Assembly (NCBI RefSeq): GCF_011440375.1
Contig: NZ_JAAOIR010000001.1
Span: 496,001 to 560,000 of the forward strand
Direction of reading: 5' to 3'
Origin: Halorubellus sp. JP-L1
Lineage (GTDB): Archaea; Halobacteriota; Halobacteria; Halobacteriales; Natrialbaceae
DNA: 64,000 nt
Part shown: one piece after another, positions 5,318-40,240 of the stretch
How positions within the stretch are numbered: position 1 is the first letter of the stretch
Layout: the number at the start of each line of letters is the position of its first letter
Translations under genes and position numbers: made by a program
The notes under the pieces: generated by a model
Database searches by the model: none
What the model saw: only the letters and a program-made list of their open reading frames with translations
Told to the model about the DNA's origin: nothing

Positions 5318-5697
5318 CACGCCCCACCCCCGCTGGTGAGCGCCAGCCAGTCGAACGATCGGTCCGTCGACGCGAGCTCCGCGACAATGAGCGCGCACGC
5401 GACCCACTCCGCGAGCGGCTGGTCCTCGTACCCGCCGGGGTCCTGGATCCACGCGTCCTCAAGGCCGCCGTCATGCGCGCCCGGCCCAATCGGAACCTGA
5501 ACCTCCCAGGACTCGAACGCCGAGCGGACGCGCACCCGGAACACGTGCTCGTCCTCCTGACTCTCGACACTCACCCAGTCGTACGGGCACCCACTGGGGA
5601 GGTCGCGCCCGCTGAGCGTCTCAGTGTCGGCCGCCGCAGCGAGCGGCAGCCCTGCCAATCCATCGCGCTGCTGTCGACGTCGTGGTGCAGTTCCCAT
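5317..5697 (-). CDS. Viral protein, 126 aa (tandem paralogue)
   Basis: The upstream copy of the tandem pair; it has 'HVFRVRVRSAFESWEVQVPIG' and 'AEWVACALIVAELASTDRSFDWLALT', matching the shape of the 127-aa neighbour. Start chosen at the ATG at 5697, because upstream sequence has no coding character. It is the first gene of a two-gene leftward unit; the GTTACCCCAC inverted repeat lies about 110 bases upstream. Function unknown. Confidence 0.65.
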   Translation of the reverse strand: MGTAPRRRQQRDGLAGLPLAAAADTETLSGRDLPSGCPYDWVSVESQEDEHVFRVRVRSAFESWEVQVPIGPGAHDGGLEDAWIQDPGGYEDQPLAEWVACALIVAELASTDRSFDWLALTSGGGA

Positions 5698-19595: not shown

Positions 19596-20750
19596 TTATT
19601 CGCGAGTGCTACGACGCGAATGCAGCTGCTTCGACTCCGACGCGTCAATGACGCGCGGCGACGCGGTCGGGTCCAGGAGGTCATCAAGCCCCGAGGGAAC
19701 TGGCCCCGACGAGTTCCCGGGAATTGTCCAGAGAACATCCTCGAGACCGCGCTTGATCGCGGCATCAAGTGCGAAGATGTCGCCCGTCGATAAGTTGCTG
19801 AAGAGGACGTACGCGTCGACACGTTCTAGGCCGATGCCGACGACGTCGACGTCCAGGACCTCCCAATCGGTCGTGCTCGGACTAACACTCTCCCAGGCCT
19901 CCGATACCGCGTTCCAGCGCTGGGCGCTGATCCCGGGCGACCCCTCTTCGTCGAACGTGACCCGGAGCCGCCCGGTGTCCGCGACGAGATTTCCCGAGTA
20001 GTCGTGGTCCGGCGAGAAGACCTTCGACCACTGGACGTCACCGTCGCTGTCGAGCTTCGAGTCGTGACCGCGGGTATCCCAGACGCGGACGTCCACGCCC
20101 TCCTCGACGTCGTACGGGACATCGTAGATGAGCGCCGGCTCCGACGCGCCGAGCGGGTCGTCGGTGTAGGGGTCGAAGAGGTCGACGTCCGCCCACTCGC
20201 CGCTGGCGGTCGCGACGACGTCCCCGCTCGCGAGCGCCGTCTCGCCCGTCTCCCGATCGACCCACTGCACCTTCGACGCCGCACCCGGGACGGCCACGCG
20301 CGACGCCTGCGTGCTCCCGAAGTCGTTCTGGACCTGAGTGGGGTTCGTCGCGACCATCCGCCAGTGCTTGTTCCGAGTGCCCTTCTGGGTGAGGCCGACG
20401 TCGAACCGCTGGAGGCTGTCGCTCTGCGCGGTCTCCGGGTTGGTCCGGCCACTCTCGAGGACGTAGTAGCCCGCGAGCGACGTCTCGCCGTCTGGCGCGA
20501 ACACGGGGATCGGACCGATGTCCGGCGAGCTCACGAGCTCGTCGAGCTCGTCGGTCTGCTTCTTGGCGTAGTCGCCGAGGTAGGCCCCGCTCAGCGTCTG
20601 CTCGCCGGGGAGACTCGAGATGTCCTCAACGATGCTGGCGCCGCCAGCGAGCGCGCCCTCCGCGGCGATGTTCTGTCGATTCGAGCGCTCCTGCCGGTCA
20701 CGCCCGGCTTGTGGGAAGACGAGCGTCGAAAACTGGAGTGTCTCAGGCAT
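19596..20750 (-). CDS. Tail protein, 384 aa
   Basis: Position after the distal tail gene and before the fibronectin/fibre genes marks it as a tail-tip component. The first ~90 residues are helical and polar; the middle ('KVQWVDRETGETALASGDVVATASGEWADVDLFDPYTDDPLGAS...') and the rest are beta-rich with no recognised domain. The C-terminal part includes 'GIGLERVDAYVLFSNLSTGDIFALDAAIKRG'. Family not identified. Confidence 0.65.
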   Translation of the reverse strand: MPETLQFSTLVFPQAGRDRQERSNRQNIAAEGALAGGASIVEDISSLPGEQTLSGAYLGDYAKKQTDELDELVSSPDIGPIPVFAPDGETSLAGYYVLESGRTNPETAQSDSLQRFDVGLTQKGTRNKHWRMVATNPTQVQNDFGSTQASRVAVPGAASKVQWVDRETGETALASGDVVATASGEWADVDLFDPYTDDPLGASEPALIYDVPYDVEEGVDVRVWDTRGHDSKLDSDGDVQWSKVFSPDHDYSGNLVADTGRLRVTFDEEGSPGISAQRWNAVSEAWESVSPSTTDWEVLDVDVVGIGLERVDAYVLFSNLSTGDIFALDAAIKRGLEDVLWTIPGNSSGPVPSGLDDLLDPTASPRVIDASESKQLHSRRSTRE

Positions 20751-20753
20751 AAG

Positions 20754-21353
20754 TTACTGGGGTGACTGCGGGGTACCGGAGGTGTAGGACTCGATGTCGA
20801 GGGTCTCGACGAACGTCATGGAGCCGTCCCAGACGCTGGACTCCTCGACGGAGTCGAACGTGAAGTTCGGGTCGCGAACGACCACGGATAGTGGCTCGTA
20901 GCGACCAGGCTCCGAGTATTCGGCGATCTCGAGTGTTGCGGGGTTTCCCGAGTCGATCTCGGTCTTCATCAGGTAGCGGTCGAGAACTGAGACTTGTGCG
21001 TGAATATCTTCGCTCGTGGCGTCGGTGGTGGTGCCGCCGTTGCCGGTGTCGCCCCACTGGTGTGGACTCCCAGTGTAGCCTTGGAAGTCCAAGGTGACGG
21101 TGTGGAGGCCGAGGCCTTTGTCGAGGGAGAGCTGCTGTCGGTTGCTTTCGCCGAGGCTGACGTCGTCGTCGCCCTCGAGGTAGTCGAGGACGAGACTGGA
21201 AATTGCGCGGATCGTGCCGGAGTCCTGGATGACTGGGTCGACCTCGGCACCAATCTCATACCGAACATTGGTAGGAAAAACGAACTTTCCTGTGACTGTC
21301 TGGCCGTCGATCTTGGCGTCCGGGATGGTAAGGGTCGGGTTGACGTAGGTCAT
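20754..21353 (-). CDS. Distal tail-type protein, 199 aa
   Basis: A beta-rich soluble protein encoded after the tape measure (MTYVNPTLTIPDAKIDGQTVTGKFVFPTNVRYEIG... and 'KGLGLHTVTLDFQGYTGSPHQWGDTG'). Size and position fit the distal tail (Dit-like) or tail-completion protein, but no diagnostic motif is seen. Only three bases separate it from the next leftward gene. Confidence 0.6.
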   Translation of the reverse strand: MTYVNPTLTIPDAKIDGQTVTGKFVFPTNVRYEIGAEVDPVIQDSGTIRAISSLVLDYLEGDDDVSLGESNRQQLSLDKGLGLHTVTLDFQGYTGSPHQWGDTGNGGTTTDATSEDIHAQVSVLDRYLMKTEIDSGNPATLEIAEYSEPGRYEPLSVVVRDPNFTFDSVEESSVWDGSMTFVETLDIESYTSGTPQSPQ

Positions 21354-21419: not shown

Positions 21420-21593
21420 ATGCCCGTAAGCCGTCCAATCAGACTTCTAATATATACTCTAGCAGCTGTGGGGGTGACGCTACTGTTCTACTCGTGGTGG
21501 GGGGTCGAAGGTGCCGGAATTGGCCTAATATCCTCCGCTCTCGGGCTGGGGGTAGGTGAATGGGACAACATGCGAAAACGCGAAGCGGATTAG
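21420..21593 (+). CDS. Small two-span membrane protein on the opposite strand, 57 aa
   Basis: Reads MPVSRPIRLLIYTLAAVGVTLLFYSWW... then 'GAGIGLISSALGLGVGEW', two closely spaced hydrophobic segments with a basic N terminus and charged end. It lies on the plus strand in a gap between the tape measure and distal tail genes, which are both leftward. A TATA-like GATTTATCAA at about 21387-21396 lies some 25 bases before the ATG, fitting leaderless expression. It behaves like an independently expressed accessory gene. Function unknown. Confidence 0.6.
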   Translation: MPVSRPIRLLIYTLAAVGVTLLFYSWWGVEGAGIGLISSALGLGVGEWDNMRKREAD

Positions 21594-22858
21594 ACTCGTC
21601 TGGAGTTTTTGATGCGTTCGAGGTCGCGACGCACCTGTTCCATCTCACGCTTTAGCTCGCGTTCGAGTTTCGAGAGGCTCTGGGCATCGATGGTGATCTT
21701 GTTCGTGACGTCGATCGTCGTGTTCCCGCTTTCTCGAGACTCACGAGCTCGGTTCCCACCGAACGCGCCGGTGCGTCGACGCCGGATGTCGTCCCGGTAG
21801 ACGTCCGAGTTACTCTGCCGGGCTTCGCGGATGGTGTCGACGGTCCCGCGACTGTAGCCTGACGTGAGGAACGACGGGATATTCGCCTGTGCACGTTCCT
21901 GCGCCTGCCCTGTCGGGTTCACGCGCTGCTGAGTCCCATTGGAGTCACCATTCCCGCCGAACATCTCCACCAGATTCGGCGGCTTGATCCCGAACGTCAT
22001 CGTGCCCTGACCCAGGACGCTATTCCGAGGGGTTTTCTCGTCGCCTGCCTTCCACGGCGCTTGCATCTGTGACCCCGCAACCGCCGGCGCCGCGATACCC
22101 AGAACACTGAGAAGCGATCCGGTTCCAGCCGTAGCACTTGCTGAAGCTCCAAGGCCGCTTGACGCACTTCCGCCGAGTGCCTTCGCGAGTAGGGCGAGTC
22201 CACCACCAGCAGCGCCTGCCGCTGCCAACTTTGTCGCACCCGACCCACTCCCGTCGCCACTGGGGAGGTTGACGGTGATTGGGAGCCAATCAGGCTCCTC
22301 GATCCCGAGCGCTGGGAGATCCGGCGTCACATCCAGCTTCGGCGGGTTGTCGACAACGTCGAGATCAGGGAACGCGCTGCCGTCTGGAATCCTGATCTTC
22401 GGCGCATCCGGCATCTCGAGCGACGGGAGATCCGGCCACGAAAACGACGTCAGGGCGCCGACGATAGCCGCAGCACCCAGGAGCATCCCTCCCCCGAGCA
22501 GACCACCGCCACCACCGCTGCCACTCCGAGGACGAAGCGAGCTTCCCGCACCTCCACCTGCAGCGGTCTCGACGAGCTCCTCGAGGAGCTCGTTCCGGTC
22601 GTGCGCGAGCTCGACGAGGTCGTCGGAGTCCGCCGCAATCGACTCCGCCGAGTCCGCCTGGTCCGAGAGCAGCTGGCGGCTCATCGCCCGTTCTTTCGAC
22701 GCACGCCCATTCGCGCTCGAGGCGAGCTGGCCGGACGTCGACGTGTCGACGTCGACCGACACGCCACCGAGTTCGTCCTCAATCTCGGCGCGTGCGTTCC
22801 GGATGCTGGCGTCGCTCACCTCGAGGTCCAGGACGGCCTTCGTGCCGAACTCAGTCAC
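21590..22858 (-). CDS. Short tail tape-measure protein, 422 aa
   Basis: Helical, low-complexity protein directly after the tail chaperone frames. The N-terminal region ('AVLDLEVSDASIRNARAEIEDELGGVSVDV') begins as many tape measures do, and residues ~90-110 are coiled coil. A Gly/Ala-rich hydrophobic segment follows ('GGGLLGGGMLLGAAAIVGAL', ~118-137), with another around 215-230. The last ~40 residues are again coiled coil. The start codon is GTG (22858), overlapping the stop of the frameshift frame. At the usual 1.5 angstrom per residue it would set a tail of roughly 60 nm, an inference. Confidence 0.75.
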   Translation of the reverse strand: MTEFGTKAVLDLEVSDASIRNARAEIEDELGGVSVDVDTSTSGQLASSANGRASKERAMSRQLLSDQADSAESIAADSDDLVELAHDRNELLEELVETAAGGGAGSSLRPRSGSGGGGGLLGGGMLLGAAAIVGALTSFSWPDLPSLEMPDAPKIRIPDGSAFPDLDVVDNPPKLDVTPDLPALGIEEPDWLPITVNLPSGDGSGSGATKLAAAGAAGGGLALLAKALGGSASSGLGASASATAGTGSLLSVLGIAAPAVAGSQMQAPWKAGDEKTPRNSVLGQGTMTFGIKPPNLVEMFGGNGDSNGTQQRVNPTGQAQERAQANIPSFLTSGYSRGTVDTIREARQSNSDVYRDDIRRRRTGAFGGNRARESRESGNTTIDVTNKITIDAQSLSKLERELKREMEQVRRDLERIKNSRRV

Positions 22859-22995
22859 AGGAGGTCACCTCCCAGATCTGGCATGAGCATCTTCAGTGCG
22901 AGGTAGCGTTCGACGTCCCGCCACCGGTATTCGCGAATCTGGCGCGGATCATGCCCATCGGACATGAGGAGAGCGCAGGCGTACTGCGTGGTCAC
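22855..22995 (-). CDS. Tail chaperone second frame (T part), reached by -1 frameshift
   Basis: This -1-phase frame runs on past the stop of the 169-aa chaperone. It encodes 'QYACALLMSDGHDPRQIREYRWRDVERYLALKMLMPDL', the short Trp/Arg-rich type of sequence seen in phage GT-like extensions. A GTG at 22995 could start it independently (46 aa). The frame is open from two codons before the slippery site at 23055-23061, so a -1 shift would give a 215-residue fusion (149 + 66). Its stop overlaps the tape-measure GTG. Chaperone role is inferred from gene order and frameshift architecture. Confidence 0.7.
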   Translation of the reverse strand: MTTQYACALLMSDGHDPRQIREYRWRDVERYLALKMLMPDLGGDLL

Positions 22996-23501
22996 TCGTC
23001 GGTCGACGTCGTCTGGCGTTGCTTCTCCGCGAGCAACTCGGCGAAGCTCTTCGAGTTTCCCGCATCAGGCGTCGTCACCTCGTTGATCTCGGCCTCGAGG
23101 AACTGCACGAGCGCCGGACTCTGATCGCTCACGACGGCGATCGTCTCCTCGTGACTCTGACCGGACTCGAGGAACGGAGCGTCCTGAAGGCCGGTCGCGA
23201 CGAACACAATCCGACTGACGCCGTCGGCAGCGTCGCTGTCGTCGTCGACGGAGGCCTTTATGTAGTCCTCGGCACGACCGTACTCGCCGGCGGTGAGCGC
23301 CCCGATTGTGATCATGGCGTCCTCGCCGTGCTCGCGTGCGACCTCGGCGAGCGCGTCCCGGTGCGTCTCGATGCGCGTCGCCTCCTGGAGCGTGTCCTGA
23401 TCGGCGTCGCCAGCCGCGGTCTGTTCGGCGAGCTCGTCGAGGCGCGCGTCGAGCTCGTCGTGCTTCTCTCCGACGTCGATCGTGCGGGTCTTCCGGGGCA
23501 T
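22992..23501 (-). CDS. Tail assembly chaperone (G-like), 169 aa
   Basis: Encoded between the tail tube and the tape measure, the standard position. Residues ~8-45 form a helical, acidic segment; 'DAMITIGALTAGEYGRAEDYI' and 'VSDQSPALVQFLEAEINEVT' look like the compact chaperone domain. The mRNA contains G-GGA-AAC in the correct phase at codons 147-149 (23055-23061), a canonical -1 slippery heptamer like lambda's GGGAAAG. The ordinary product stops at 22992; the shifted product continues. These proteins bind the tape measure before tube polymerisation. Confidence 0.75.
   Translation of the reverse strand: MPRKTRTIDVGEKHDELDARLDELAEQTAAGDADQDTLQEATRIETHRDALAEVAREHGEDAMITIGALTAGEYGRAEDYIKASVDDDSDAADGVSRIVFVATGLQDAPFLESGQSHEETIAVVSDQSPALVQFLEAEINEVTTPDAGNSKSFAELLAEKQRQTTSTDE
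23055..23061 (-). promoter_or_regulatory. Programmed -1 frameshift slippery site GGGAAAC
   Basis: Reads G-GGA-AAC in the zero frame (GGA is codon 148 of the chaperone). Tandem slippage would re-pair as GGG-AAA. The new frame's previous stop is only two codons upstream. A GTTGCT/AGCAAC hairpin (23018-23037) lies 17 bases downstream and a shorter AACTCG/CGAGTT stem overlaps the site; either might stimulate slippage. Confidence 0.65.
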
Positions 23502-23507
23502 GGTGAG

Positions 23508-24437
23508 TTAGGGCGTGGAGACGGACACGCCACCGTTCACGTGGAACGTGGTCGGGTCCGTGAGGTCGGCCTCCCCGATGAGGTCCGACCACGAGTACGT
23601 CGCCGGCTTCAGCTTCGGGAGACTGAACGTCGCGACGTCCGACCCGCCCACGGAGAGCGTGACGGTCCCAGTGACCGAGGACATCGACGCCTGCGGCGAC
23701 GAGGAGCCACTCCCGCCGTACGCGAGTTCGAGCCGCGACGGCCCGCTGAAGATGGCGGTCGCGTCGAGCGTCGATTCCGGGCGCGCCATCACGGCTTCCT
23801 CCGCGATCTCGCTCGCTCCCCACTGGTAGCGACTGATATTCGAGATCGACAGGGTCGTCGTCGAGAGCTTGGAGACGGTGGTACCGTCGATGTCGAGGCT
23901 GAAGCCGTGAAACGGGACGTCGTTCCCGTCGGTCGGCCCCGTGATGCTCGTCGGGTCGATCGTCGAGTCGTTGCTTTCGTCCGCGTAGAGGAACGAGACG
24001 CTGTACGTGACGGTGTTGTTCTCGTCGTCGTACGCGATCTCGAAGTCCACGGGCGTAACACCCTCGAGCTCGCGCTCGCAGGTGCCGCCGATGTAGTCGA
24101 CCCCGGCGAAGATCCGCCCCGTCTGGGCGAGACCGTCCGTGAACGCAGTGCCGCCGTCGTTGAACACCCAGTCGAGGACCTCCCCGAAGGTGTCCTTCGA
24201 GACGACCGCCGTGACGCCCACGGCGCCATCGACCTTCCCGGCGATCGAGTCCACCGACTCGACGACGCCGTCCTCGACGAGGCGTTCGAGCTGGCGGTCC
24301 AGGTCGAGCTCGTCGAGCTGGGGGTTCCGGCCGAACTTGTAGTAGTCCGTGTTGCCGTCGGAGTCCTCGTCGCGAAGATCGCCGAGGAAGCTCTGTTCGA
24401 GGGCGAACGCCAGGCTCGCGGAGCCGGCGCCCGTCAT
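23508..24437 (-). CDS. Tail tube (major tail) protein, 309 aa
   Basis: A beta-rich protein of the size and position of a major tail protein, with 'LAFALEQSFLGDLRDEDSDG', 'TPVDFEIAYDDENNTVTYSVSFLYADES', and 'GFSLDIDGTTVSKLSTTTLSISNISRYQ'. A strong GGAGGT lies about 8 bases before the ATG, fitting high expression. It follows the tail terminator and precedes the chaperone. The C-terminal half may be a surface-exposed extra domain. Family assigned by synteny and fold type rather than a diagnostic motif. Confidence 0.75.
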   Translation of the reverse strand: MTGAGSASLAFALEQSFLGDLRDEDSDGNTDYYKFGRNPQLDELDLDRQLERLVEDGVVESVDSIAGKVDGAVGVTAVVSKDTFGEVLDWVFNDGGTAFTDGLAQTGRIFAGVDYIGGTCERELEGVTPVDFEIAYDDENNTVTYSVSFLYADESNDSTIDPTSITGPTDGNDVPFHGFSLDIDGTTVSKLSTTTLSISNISRYQWGASEIAEEAVMARPESTLDATAIFSGPSRLELAYGGSGSSSPQASMSSVTGTVTLSVGGSDVATFSLPKLKPATYSWSDLIGEADLTDPTTFHVNGGVSVSTP

Positions 24438-27021: not shown

Positions 27022-27954
27022 TTAGCTGGTCGCGATGTTCTGGCCGAGCGCGACCGCGTCGGCGGCCTCGACCTTGTAGTCGGTGCGAGCGAGCAGGTTG
27101 TAGATCCCGTAGAGGTCGCGCTTCACGACCGCCTCGCCCTCCTGGGTGACGCGCATGTTGACGTCACGGTGGACGCCCCAGACGAGGTTCATGGGCGTGG
27201 TGAGCATCGCACGGTCGTCGGGGAACCCGACGGGCGTGACGATCGGGCGCCCGTACGGCGTCGGCTCCTCGCCCGTCATCAGCATCGCGTCACCGGCCGC
27301 CGTCGACCGGTCGGTGAGGTAGTCCTTGTAGTTCTGCTTCTGGTTGAGGCTCGTGATGAACACGAGGTCCTCGGGGTTCCGGCGGTACTTCGCGTCCAGC
27401 GACGTCATCAGGTTGTTGAACACCGACTTGTCGATGGTCGCGTTCTGATGGTCGACGTTCGCCGCCGGCCCCTGCTGTTCGGCGTCCCTGATCCAGCCGT
27501 CGTTGATCGAGAGGAACGCGTCGCCGCTCGTGGTGTCGCCGTTGAACGCGAGGTCCTCGGAGTCGACACCGAACTGGCGGGCGAACTTCTCGACGAGGAT
27601 GTCCGCGGTGCCCTCGCCTTCGATGGTGTCCTCGACGGTCTCCATCGAGACCTCCCACGGGAGTTCCATCTTCACTGCGTCCATGTCGATGGACTCCGTG
27701 CTCGGCGTGTTCAGCGAGCCCGCGGTGGCCTCGGTGGCCTCCCGGAGGAGGCGTTCGCCGACGCCGATGCGGTCGATCTGCTGCTTCGGGCCCTTCAGGC
27801 GCTCGAAGCGGACATCGTCCATGATCTGCGCGGAGTCCTGGGCGATCTGGAAGAACTCGTCGAACTGCTGGCGGTTCAGGAGACCGCCACCGCTGAAGTC
27901 ACTCGTGGTGACCTTGTTGAGCGACCGCTCGCTCGAGATGCGCTCGCCCGACAT
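27022..27954 (-). CDS. Major capsid protein (HK97 fold), 310 aa
   Basis: The N-terminal region ('GGGLLNRQQFDEFFQIAQDSAQIMDDVRFERLKGPKQQIDRIGVGERLLREA') followed by the E-loop region, then 'PWEVSMETVEDTIEG', 'LAFNGDTTSGDAFLSINDGWIRDA' and a C-terminal 'NLVWGVHRDVNMRVTQEGEAVVKRDLYGIYN' match the HK97-type capsid protein of P2/PBSX-like tailed viruses. No extra scaffold is fused here; that role likely lies in the upstream protease protein. ATG overlaps the protease stop. Confidence 0.88.
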   Translation of the reverse strand: MSGERISSERSLNKVTTSDFSGGGLLNRQQFDEFFQIAQDSAQIMDDVRFERLKGPKQQIDRIGVGERLLREATEATAGSLNTPSTESIDMDAVKMELPWEVSMETVEDTIEGEGTADILVEKFARQFGVDSEDLAFNGDTTSGDAFLSINDGWIRDAEQQGPAANVDHQNATIDKSVFNNLMTSLDAKYRRNPEDLVFITSLNQKQNYKDYLTDRSTAAGDAMLMTGEEPTPYGRPIVTPVGFPDDRAMLTTPMNLVWGVHRDVNMRVTQEGEAVVKRDLYGIYNLLARTDYKVEAADAVALGQNIATS

Positions 27955-37976: not shown

Positions 37977-38050
37977 AGCCAGGAGGGGGATTCGAACCCC
38001 CGAAGTCTCGATTACAAGTCGAGTGCATGAACCGCCCATGCTCTCCTGGC
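37977..38050 (-). tRNA. tRNA-Thr (anticodon TGT)
   Basis: A full cloverleaf of 74 bases can be drawn: 7-base acceptor (GCCAGGA/TCCTGGC), D stem GCAT/ATGC, anticodon stem CTCGA/TCGAG with loop CTTGTAA, and T-arm GGGGG-TTCGAAT-CCCCC. The discriminator is T and no CCA is encoded. No intron. Its 3' end faces the provirus, marking the integration site. Confidence 0.95.
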
Positions 38051-38606: not shown

Positions 38607-39827
38607 CTACGCCTCACGCGCCGCGGGTGCGTGACGGAGCGCCTCGACCGCCGGCAACTCGCCGTTCGTCAACATCTGGAGGCAGGCACCGCCACCCGTC
38701 GACAGGTGATCGAACCCCTCCAGGTCGAACTTCCGGATGGCCGCCGCGGTGTCGCCGCCGCCGACGATGCTGTACGTCGGGTTGCTCGCGGCCGCGTAGA
38801 GCTCTCGCGTTCCGTTCTCGAACAGCGAGTCCTCGAACACGCCAGCCGGCCCGTTCAGGACGACGGTCTCCGCAGACTCGAGGACGTCGCGGTACATGCG
38901 GATCGTCTCGCTCCCGACGTCCATCGCCGCCTCGTCCTCGCGACCCGGGAGTGCGTTCAACCCGAGTTCGTGGCGTTCGCCGTCGCGTTCCACGGCGACG
39001 TCCTGCGGGAACCGGATTGCGTCCCCGTGCGCATCGAGGAGGTCCGCCGCCCGATCGATCTCGTCCCAGTACCCCTGATCGTAGATGAAGTCCGAGGAGG
39101 CGTCGCCGACGTCGACGCCGTCCGCGAGCAGGAAGACGTTCCCGACGACGCCCGTCGTCAGGACCGAGTCCGCCATCCCGGACTCGAGGACGTCCCACGC
39201 CACGTCGATGGAGTCACTCACCTTCGCGCCCCCGAGCAAGTACACGCGCGGGCGCGGCGTCTCGTCGACGTTCCCGAGGACGTCGATCTCGGCCTCCATC
39301 ACGCGACCCATGTAACTCGGGAGGTGCTGCGGGAACCCGACGAGCGACGGCTGGGAGCGATGCGCGGCCGCGAACGCGTCGTTCACGTAACAGTCGAGGA
39401 CGGGAACGAGGCCGGTGACGAGGTGCGTGTCGCCCGCCGCCGCGGGCTCGAACTCCATGTACTCCTCGCTGTAGAAGCGCGTGTTCTCGAGGACGAGCAC
39501 CTCGCCGGCCTCGAGCGCGTCGACGCGATCGCGAGCCTGCTGGTTGCAGGTCGCGTCGAGGTAGGAGACGGGTGCGTCGAGGAGGTCGTCGAACCGGTCG
39601 GCGTGCGGCCGCAGTCGCCCGAACTGGTCGCCGCCAGGGCGACCCTGGTGGGCGAGGACGACGACGCGGCCGCCGCGGCCGGCGATCTCTGCGAGCGTGT
39701 CGTGGTGGGCCTGGAGGCGCGCGTCGTCGGCGAGCGCGCCGTCCGCTTCGAGTGGACTGTTCACGTCCACGCGGACCGCGACGGCGGCACCGTCGAGGGT
39801 GGCGTCGTCCAGGGTCTCCAACGGCAT
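38607..39827 (-). CDS. pgk: Phosphoglycerate kinase
   Basis: 406 residues, the family's normal length. Conserved blocks: 'VRVDVNSPLE' (substrate site, haloarchaeal version), 'VLAHQGRPGG', 'VLENTRFYSEE', 'DCYVNDAFAAAHRSQPS', 'PRVYLLGGAKVSDSI', 'SIVGGGDTAAAI' and 'HLSTGGGACLQML' (hinge/ATP site). The enzyme moves phosphate between 1,3-bisphosphoglycerate and ADP. Start taken at the ATG at 39827, where the protein begins at the expected domain; longer upstream frame lacks conservation. Confidence 0.95.
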   Translation of the reverse strand: MPLETLDDATLDGAAVAVRVDVNSPLEADGALADDARLQAHHDTLAEIAGRGGRVVVLAHQGRPGGDQFGRLRPHADRFDDLLDAPVSYLDATCNQQARDRVDALEAGEVLVLENTRFYSEEYMEFEPAAAGDTHLVTGLVPVLDCYVNDAFAAAHRSQPSLVGFPQHLPSYMGRVMEAEIDVLGNVDETPRPRVYLLGGAKVSDSIDVAWDVLESGMADSVLTTGVVGNVFLLADGVDVGDASSDFIYDQGYWDEIDRAADLLDAHGDAIRFPQDVAVERDGERHELGLNALPGREDEAAMDVGSETIRMYRDVLESAETVVLNGPAGVFEDSLFENGTRELYAAASNPTYSIVGGGDTAAAIRKFDLEGFDHLSTGGGACLQMLTNGELPAVEALRHAPAAREA

Positions 39828-40240
39828 GATTGGGGTTCCGCGGGGGCCGGTGAAAGACCTTTCTTTGTTCGACCAGGGGATATGACAGAAGCTACCGAGG
39901 GGTGTGACAGCACGCTGAACGAACGACCGGTGACGGCGGCGGTCGTACGGGTCCTTCGTGGGGGTATTCGGCAGTTCTGGGCGTCTCGCTGCCGACGGTC
40001 GGTTCGACGGACCGTCGAGAGATCTCGTCTGAATCTGATACGTCCTGTCCAGGAGCGGCTGTCGTGACCGCCTCGCAGCCACCGGGCAGGCGTCAGAAAC
40101 CCGACGTAGTAAGCGGGCGGAATCGAATGGGCCGGAGTTCGAAAAGCGCCGCACTCACAGCCACCAGCTATGCGCTTTTCCTGATAGGTCGGGCAAGACT
40201 TAACTATCTCCTTGTCGCGCATTCTTTGTAAGACACACAC
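39828..40240. other. 413-base divergent promoter region (pgk / livH)
   Basis: No gene seen. The AT-rich CTTAACTATC at about 40199-40208 lies 33 bases before the livH ATG and is a good TATA candidate. The rest holds the leftward pgk promoter and nothing else I can support. Confidence 0.5.

Follow-up and report, generated by a model that had tools for sequence, protein, structure and literature searches.

A probable lambda-type G/GT frameshift in the tail assembly chaperone genes of a BJ1-like haloarchaeal provirus, and the near-invariance of its slippery heptamer

Background

Does a provirus in the genome of Halorubellus sp. JP-L1 produce its tail assembly chaperone in two forms, through a programmed -1 frameshift of the kind known from genes G and GT of phage lambda? 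The question arises from a 64,000-nt stretch of contig NZ_JAAOIR010000001.1 (hereafter the window, to which all coordinates refer), in which two overlapping ORFs lie between a tail tube-position gene and a gene in tape-measure position, as in the G/GT scheme. A first-pass annotation of the window had read this arrangement as a lambda-like -1 frameshift and regarded it as rarely documented in archaea. It is indeed little documented, yet already reported in haloviruses. For archaea, experimental demonstration of a programmed -1 frameshift comes from a single cellular gene, fucA1 of Saccharolobus (PMC8211752); in haloviruses it is only predicted, so far as the literature examined states. Frameshifting of the -1 G/GT type has been reported for HVTV-1, HCTV-1, HCTV-2 and HCTV-5, with G_GGA_AAC as the site in HCTV-1 (PMC5009743, PMC8211752). 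For Hardycor1 and a Natronolimnobius provirus, which we set beside the present locus on their published description, -1 sites (G_GGA_AAT and G_GGA_AAG) have been predicted before the tape measure gene (PMC7911831). Since HCTV-1, Hardycor1 and others have been so reported, the gene pair described here belongs to a kind already known.

Results

All features of the locus are on the minus strand. The upstream ORF (22992..23501; 169 aa, ATG start) would encode a G-type tail assembly chaperone; its only family match is PHROG 19457, of unknown function. It contains the slippery heptamer G_GGA_AAC in phase at 23055..23061, to the base where the first-pass annotation had placed it, within the 0-frame sequence ...ACG CCT GAT GCG GGA AAC TCG AAG... 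GAC GAG TGA, 22 codons 5' of the 0-frame stop. The nearest -1 frame stop upstream is a TGA two codons away (23065..23067). From the heptamer the -1 frame is open for 68 codons counted from GGG AAA, or 66 past the site (22855..23061), reading GK-LEELRRVARGEATPDDVDRRVTTQYACALLMSDGHDPRQIREYRWRDVERYLALKMLMPDLGGDLL* and terminating at a TGA (22857-22855) within the GTG start (22858-22856) of a 422-aa ORF. A -1 shift at the heptamer would yield a G-T fusion of 215 aa, the size that had been expected. The extension had also been described as Trp/Arg-rich, which holds for arginine (10 in 66 residues) and fails for tryptophan, of which there is one.

A single sequence is weak evidence in such a case, because GGGAAAC is no commoner in the window than expected (4 observed versus 5.4 expected) and because 3-5% of synonymous shuffles of the G gene also contain an in-phase heptamer that opens into a long -1 ORF, so that the pattern is only mildly unusual. 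Moreover, two other tail genes carry an in-phase GGGAAAC or GGGAAAT with no long -1 ORF (20943-20949, and within the gene 19596-20750), so that the heptamer alone is not diagnostic. It is comparison among homologous sequences that decides the case for frameshifting.

The surrounding genes identify the element. The tube-position gene (23508..24437) matches PHROG 18409, minor tail protein, and is a homologue of BJ1 ORF60; the major capsid protein gene (27022..27954) is a homologue of BJ1 ORF53. The gene order is major capsid protein, tube, G, T and tape-measure position, and terminase and portal genes are also present. Because the capsid and tube genes are homologous to those of BJ1 and stand in the same order, the element is, by homology, a BJ1-like (Graaviviridae-related) haloarchaeal provirus. 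The 422-aa ORF (21590..22858), whose GTG start overlies the T stop, exhibits no Pfam or PHROG family match and a weak C-terminal similarity to BJ1 ORF62. The placement of the chaperone between tube and tape measure is correct as to gene position, and it is from its position that the 422-aa ORF takes the name "tape measure". Beyond the packaging genes, a tRNA-Thr gene (37977-38050) and a phosphoglycerate kinase gene (38607-40154) are found; this tRNA-Thr may be the provirus attachment site.

Related loci were collected by protein searches, the heptamer never being used as a DNA query. A search among 100 relatives returned 13 homologous places with 28-37% identity, in other genomes or elsewhere, and at the corresponding junction of each distinct one an in-phase G_GGA_AAC is present. 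Across 392 genomes of the order, a profile of G matched 43 genomes and a profile of T matched 42; the two sets are almost identical, and the strong T matches lie directly behind G. The 46 distinct Halobacteriales provirus loci thus assembled exhibit G_GGA_AAC (43 loci), G_GGA_AAT (L041), A_AAA_AAC (L044) and A_AAT_TTG (L054). The isolates BJ1 and CGphi46, both Halorubrum viruses, each have G_GGA_AAC and a 61-codon T. A scan with the T motif GHDPR brought in 12 more loci, one from Halobellus rufus and 11 from IMG/VR contigs, 10 of the 12 with G_GGA_AAC and 2 with G_GGA_AAT; two further hits (L090 and L091) are repeats of earlier loci. A scan of IMG/VR with a single G protein gave no relatives, and the sole match of a phylum-wide T search outside the order is probably due to chance, because it is weak and lies within a 3372-aa open frame.

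In total, an in-phase X_XXY_YYZ heptamer is observed at the G-T junction in all of the 60 distinct haloarchaeal provirus and virus loci, 55 of them with G_GGA_AAC, 3 with G_GGA_AAT and one each with A_AAA_AAC and A_AAT_TTG. The lambda heptamer ends in AAG, whereas the second codon of the site here is that of asparagine (AAC or AAT) in 59 of the 60 loci. The first-pass annotation had looked to related haloviruses for a conserved GGGAAAC and frame, and had named as damaging the existence of relatives in which a second gene with its own start persists but the heptamer does not. The in-phase heptamer is kept throughout, and no such relative occurs among the 60 loci. The locus without an AAY second codon, L054, has a close relative (L101) with G_GGA_AAC. 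We dropped the reading that in L054 all seven bases of the heptamer have been cleanly exchanged while the flanks stayed identical, since the alignment of the two loci is uncertain by one codon. Our claim for L054 is limited to its still having an in-phase X_XXY_YYZ at the junction.

Could a requirement of the 0-frame protein for Gly-Asn at this point be the sole reason why the heptamer is kept? A Gly-Asn pair does occur within the C-terminal region of G in nearly all relatives. However, in 40 representatives sharing under 70% identity, GGA makes up 9.4% of the other glycine codons of the same genes and a G comes before glycine 22% of the time. Of the seven other Gly-Asn pairs in these genes, none is spelled G_GGA_AAC. 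From these codon usages GGGAAAC would be expected in 1.9% of cases per locus, versus 37 of the 40 representatives observed; the corresponding binomial probability, about 1e-60, is uncorrected for relatedness and therefore only indicative. The heptamer columns are 95-98% identical and the adjacent columns far less so. L044 and L054 have lost Gly-Asn but retain an X_XXY_YYZ in the right phase where G and T meet, and T-bearing relatives with Gly-Asn spelled GGC AAC and no slippery heptamer are absent among the 60 loci. An explanation by the 0-frame protein alone is thus highly improbable.

The extension itself is a real protein domain under purifying selection. In the portion past the G stop, dN/dS is 0.1-0.4 in most pairs, so the conservation of T at the protein level is directly observed. 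The predicted structure is a compact helical domain (mean pLDDT 81). A fold search with this model gave no match, and a sequence search of the PDB with the G and T profiles found no tail protein, the matches being mostly coiled-coil noise.

A different origin for the T product would be a separate small gene, in which case the heptamer would be incidental. The locus offers an opportunity for this that had been overlooked: a GTGA (22992..22995) in which a -1 frame GTG (22995-22993) overlaps the 0-frame stop, and from which translation coupled to the end of G would give a peptide of 45-46 aa. GTGA or ATGA is found in 12 of the 40 representatives. However, a TGA stop always makes the overlapping -1 codon NTG, and the 26 representatives with a TGA stop comprise 14 CTG, 7 GTG and 5 ATG, with no enrichment of start codons. 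Three loci (L003, L023, L030) have no ATG, GTG or TTG throughout the -1 ORF, and in 11 of 48 loci no start lies within 35 nt past the stop. The T frame is also conserved 5' of the GTG (GK...LRR..RGE), and a separate gene leaves the conservation of the heptamer unexplained. As a general rule the separately started gene is excluded, because several relatives have no usable T start codon, and as the account of T at this locus we consider it very unlikely. A coupled start yielding a second product, in addition to the frameshifted one, is possible, if unsupported, at this locus, and possible in some other members.

Two further explanations have a negligible probability. The T frame at the locus opens just two codons 5' of the heptamer, as it might if G and T had been one frame split by a 1-nt deletion, either through a sequencing error or in a decayed provirus; this reading is already refuted by the comparative data, the two-frame layout being common to 60 distinct loci, the isolated viruses BJ1 and CGphi46 included. 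RNA polymerase slippage, instead of ribosomal frameshifting, would result in the same fusion. With three G followed by three A, however, the site falls far short of the run lengths on which transcriptional slippage is known, and the in-phase X_XXY_YYZ register is required only by tandem tRNA slippage.

The predicted fold of the G protein agrees with its assignment. The AlphaFold2 model has a mean pLDDT of 88, and its best match in the PDB is 2OB9, the tail assembly chaperone of HK97. Foldseek gives this match a probability of 0.96, and VIA aligns 89 residues with a Z of 7.1, a value below the level proving a shared fold by itself; YqbN 3KLU comes second (VIA Z 6.2). Among the matches in the viral structure library BFVD are the chaperone of HCTV-1 and several tail assembly chaperones from bacterial phages. 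With moderate scores and a predicted model, G is consistent with a tail assembly chaperone fold.

We found no conserved downstream hairpin or pseudoknot across the family. At this locus the region 3' of the heptamer folds no better than shuffled sequences (z +0.8), and, averaged over the family, the downstream region folds just a little more stably than the control. Strong stems about 5-6 nt 3' of the heptamer are seen in L009, L034, L033, L041, BJ1 (L087) and CGphi46 (L088), with z about -2 to -4. Most loci, this one included, are without a strong 3' stem, and downstream RNA structure as a common stimulator is thus unsupported. A Shine-Dalgarno-like GAGGTGA (23075..23081) located 13 nt 5' of the heptamer may be a local stimulator; no family-wide equivalent was found. 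The strongest signal of this type in the family (z about -4) lies right beside the heptamer, and we do not claim it as a stimulator because it is too close for a classical one and is uncorrected for phylogeny.

Discussion

We conclude that the gene pair is very probably a lambda-type G/GT, -1 frameshifted tail assembly chaperone of a BJ1-like haloarchaeal provirus. The proposal of the first-pass annotation is supported in passing every test possible from sequence alone. Most ribosomes would read the 169-aa G protein, and a minority would slip back one base on G_GGA_AAC, enter the -1 frame and make the 215-aa G-T fusion. In such a tandem slippage the P-site tRNA for Gly GGA would re-pair on GGG and the A-site tRNA for Asn AAC on AAA. 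By analogy with lambda, the products would be made in unequal amounts: many G and few G-T molecules would coat the tape measure protein, with the T domain recruiting the tail tube subunit. The occurrence and rate of slippage are inferred, as is the role in assembly.

The likeness to lambda extends to the gene position, a -1 shift near the end of G and an extension that stops before the tape measure gene (PMC5009743). Among archaeal viruses, HCTV-1 (Druskaviridae) has, in genes 122/123, an identical G_GGA_AAC behind a tube-position gene and an annotated joined -1 fusion (PMC5009743). Its chaperone aligns to our G family profile as a distant homologue (hhalign 94%). However, HCTV-1 belongs to another virus family, its T exhibits no obvious similarity to the one described here, and two ORFs separate that T from the tape measure gene. 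In the HF1-group and HSTV-2 a tail chaperone pair likewise precedes the tape measure gene, but there a +1 shift has been inferred (PMC7230728, PMC5009743).

The two Graaviviridae, BJ1 and CGphi46, have a homologous G, the same heptamer and a T of 61 codons; the tube and capsid of BJ1 are homologous to those of the provirus as well. They differ in that T is unannotated in both records, and the BJ1 paper does not mention frameshifting. In each record some 100 nt that follow the G gene carry no annotation, at 5451-5553 in BJ1 (AM419438.1) and at 2557-2659 in CGphi46 (HQ332141.1), and it is there that T, which a -1 frameshift would reach, is encoded. These missing T domains, which may now be flagged in the annotation of such isolated viruses, are new, as are the broad near-invariance of the site and its asparagine second codon.

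The nature of the site invites a more tentative proposal, to which we give well under even chances. Haloarchaeal ribosomes might slip efficiently on a bare G_GGA_AAY that presents a eukaryote-like asparagine codon to the A site and lacks any conserved mRNA structure, the family having kept this one site across deep divergence for the right ratio of G to G-T on the archaeal ribosome. The near-invariant heptamer in 60 haloarchaeal loci constitutes strong natural evidence for its use by archaeal ribosomes, and the same loci supply ready reporter constructs for a model host. In one of the IMG/VR contigs (L100, 2001-2010) the 0-frame stop directly follows the heptamer (GGG AAA CTG A), which should make -1 frameshifting more frequent.
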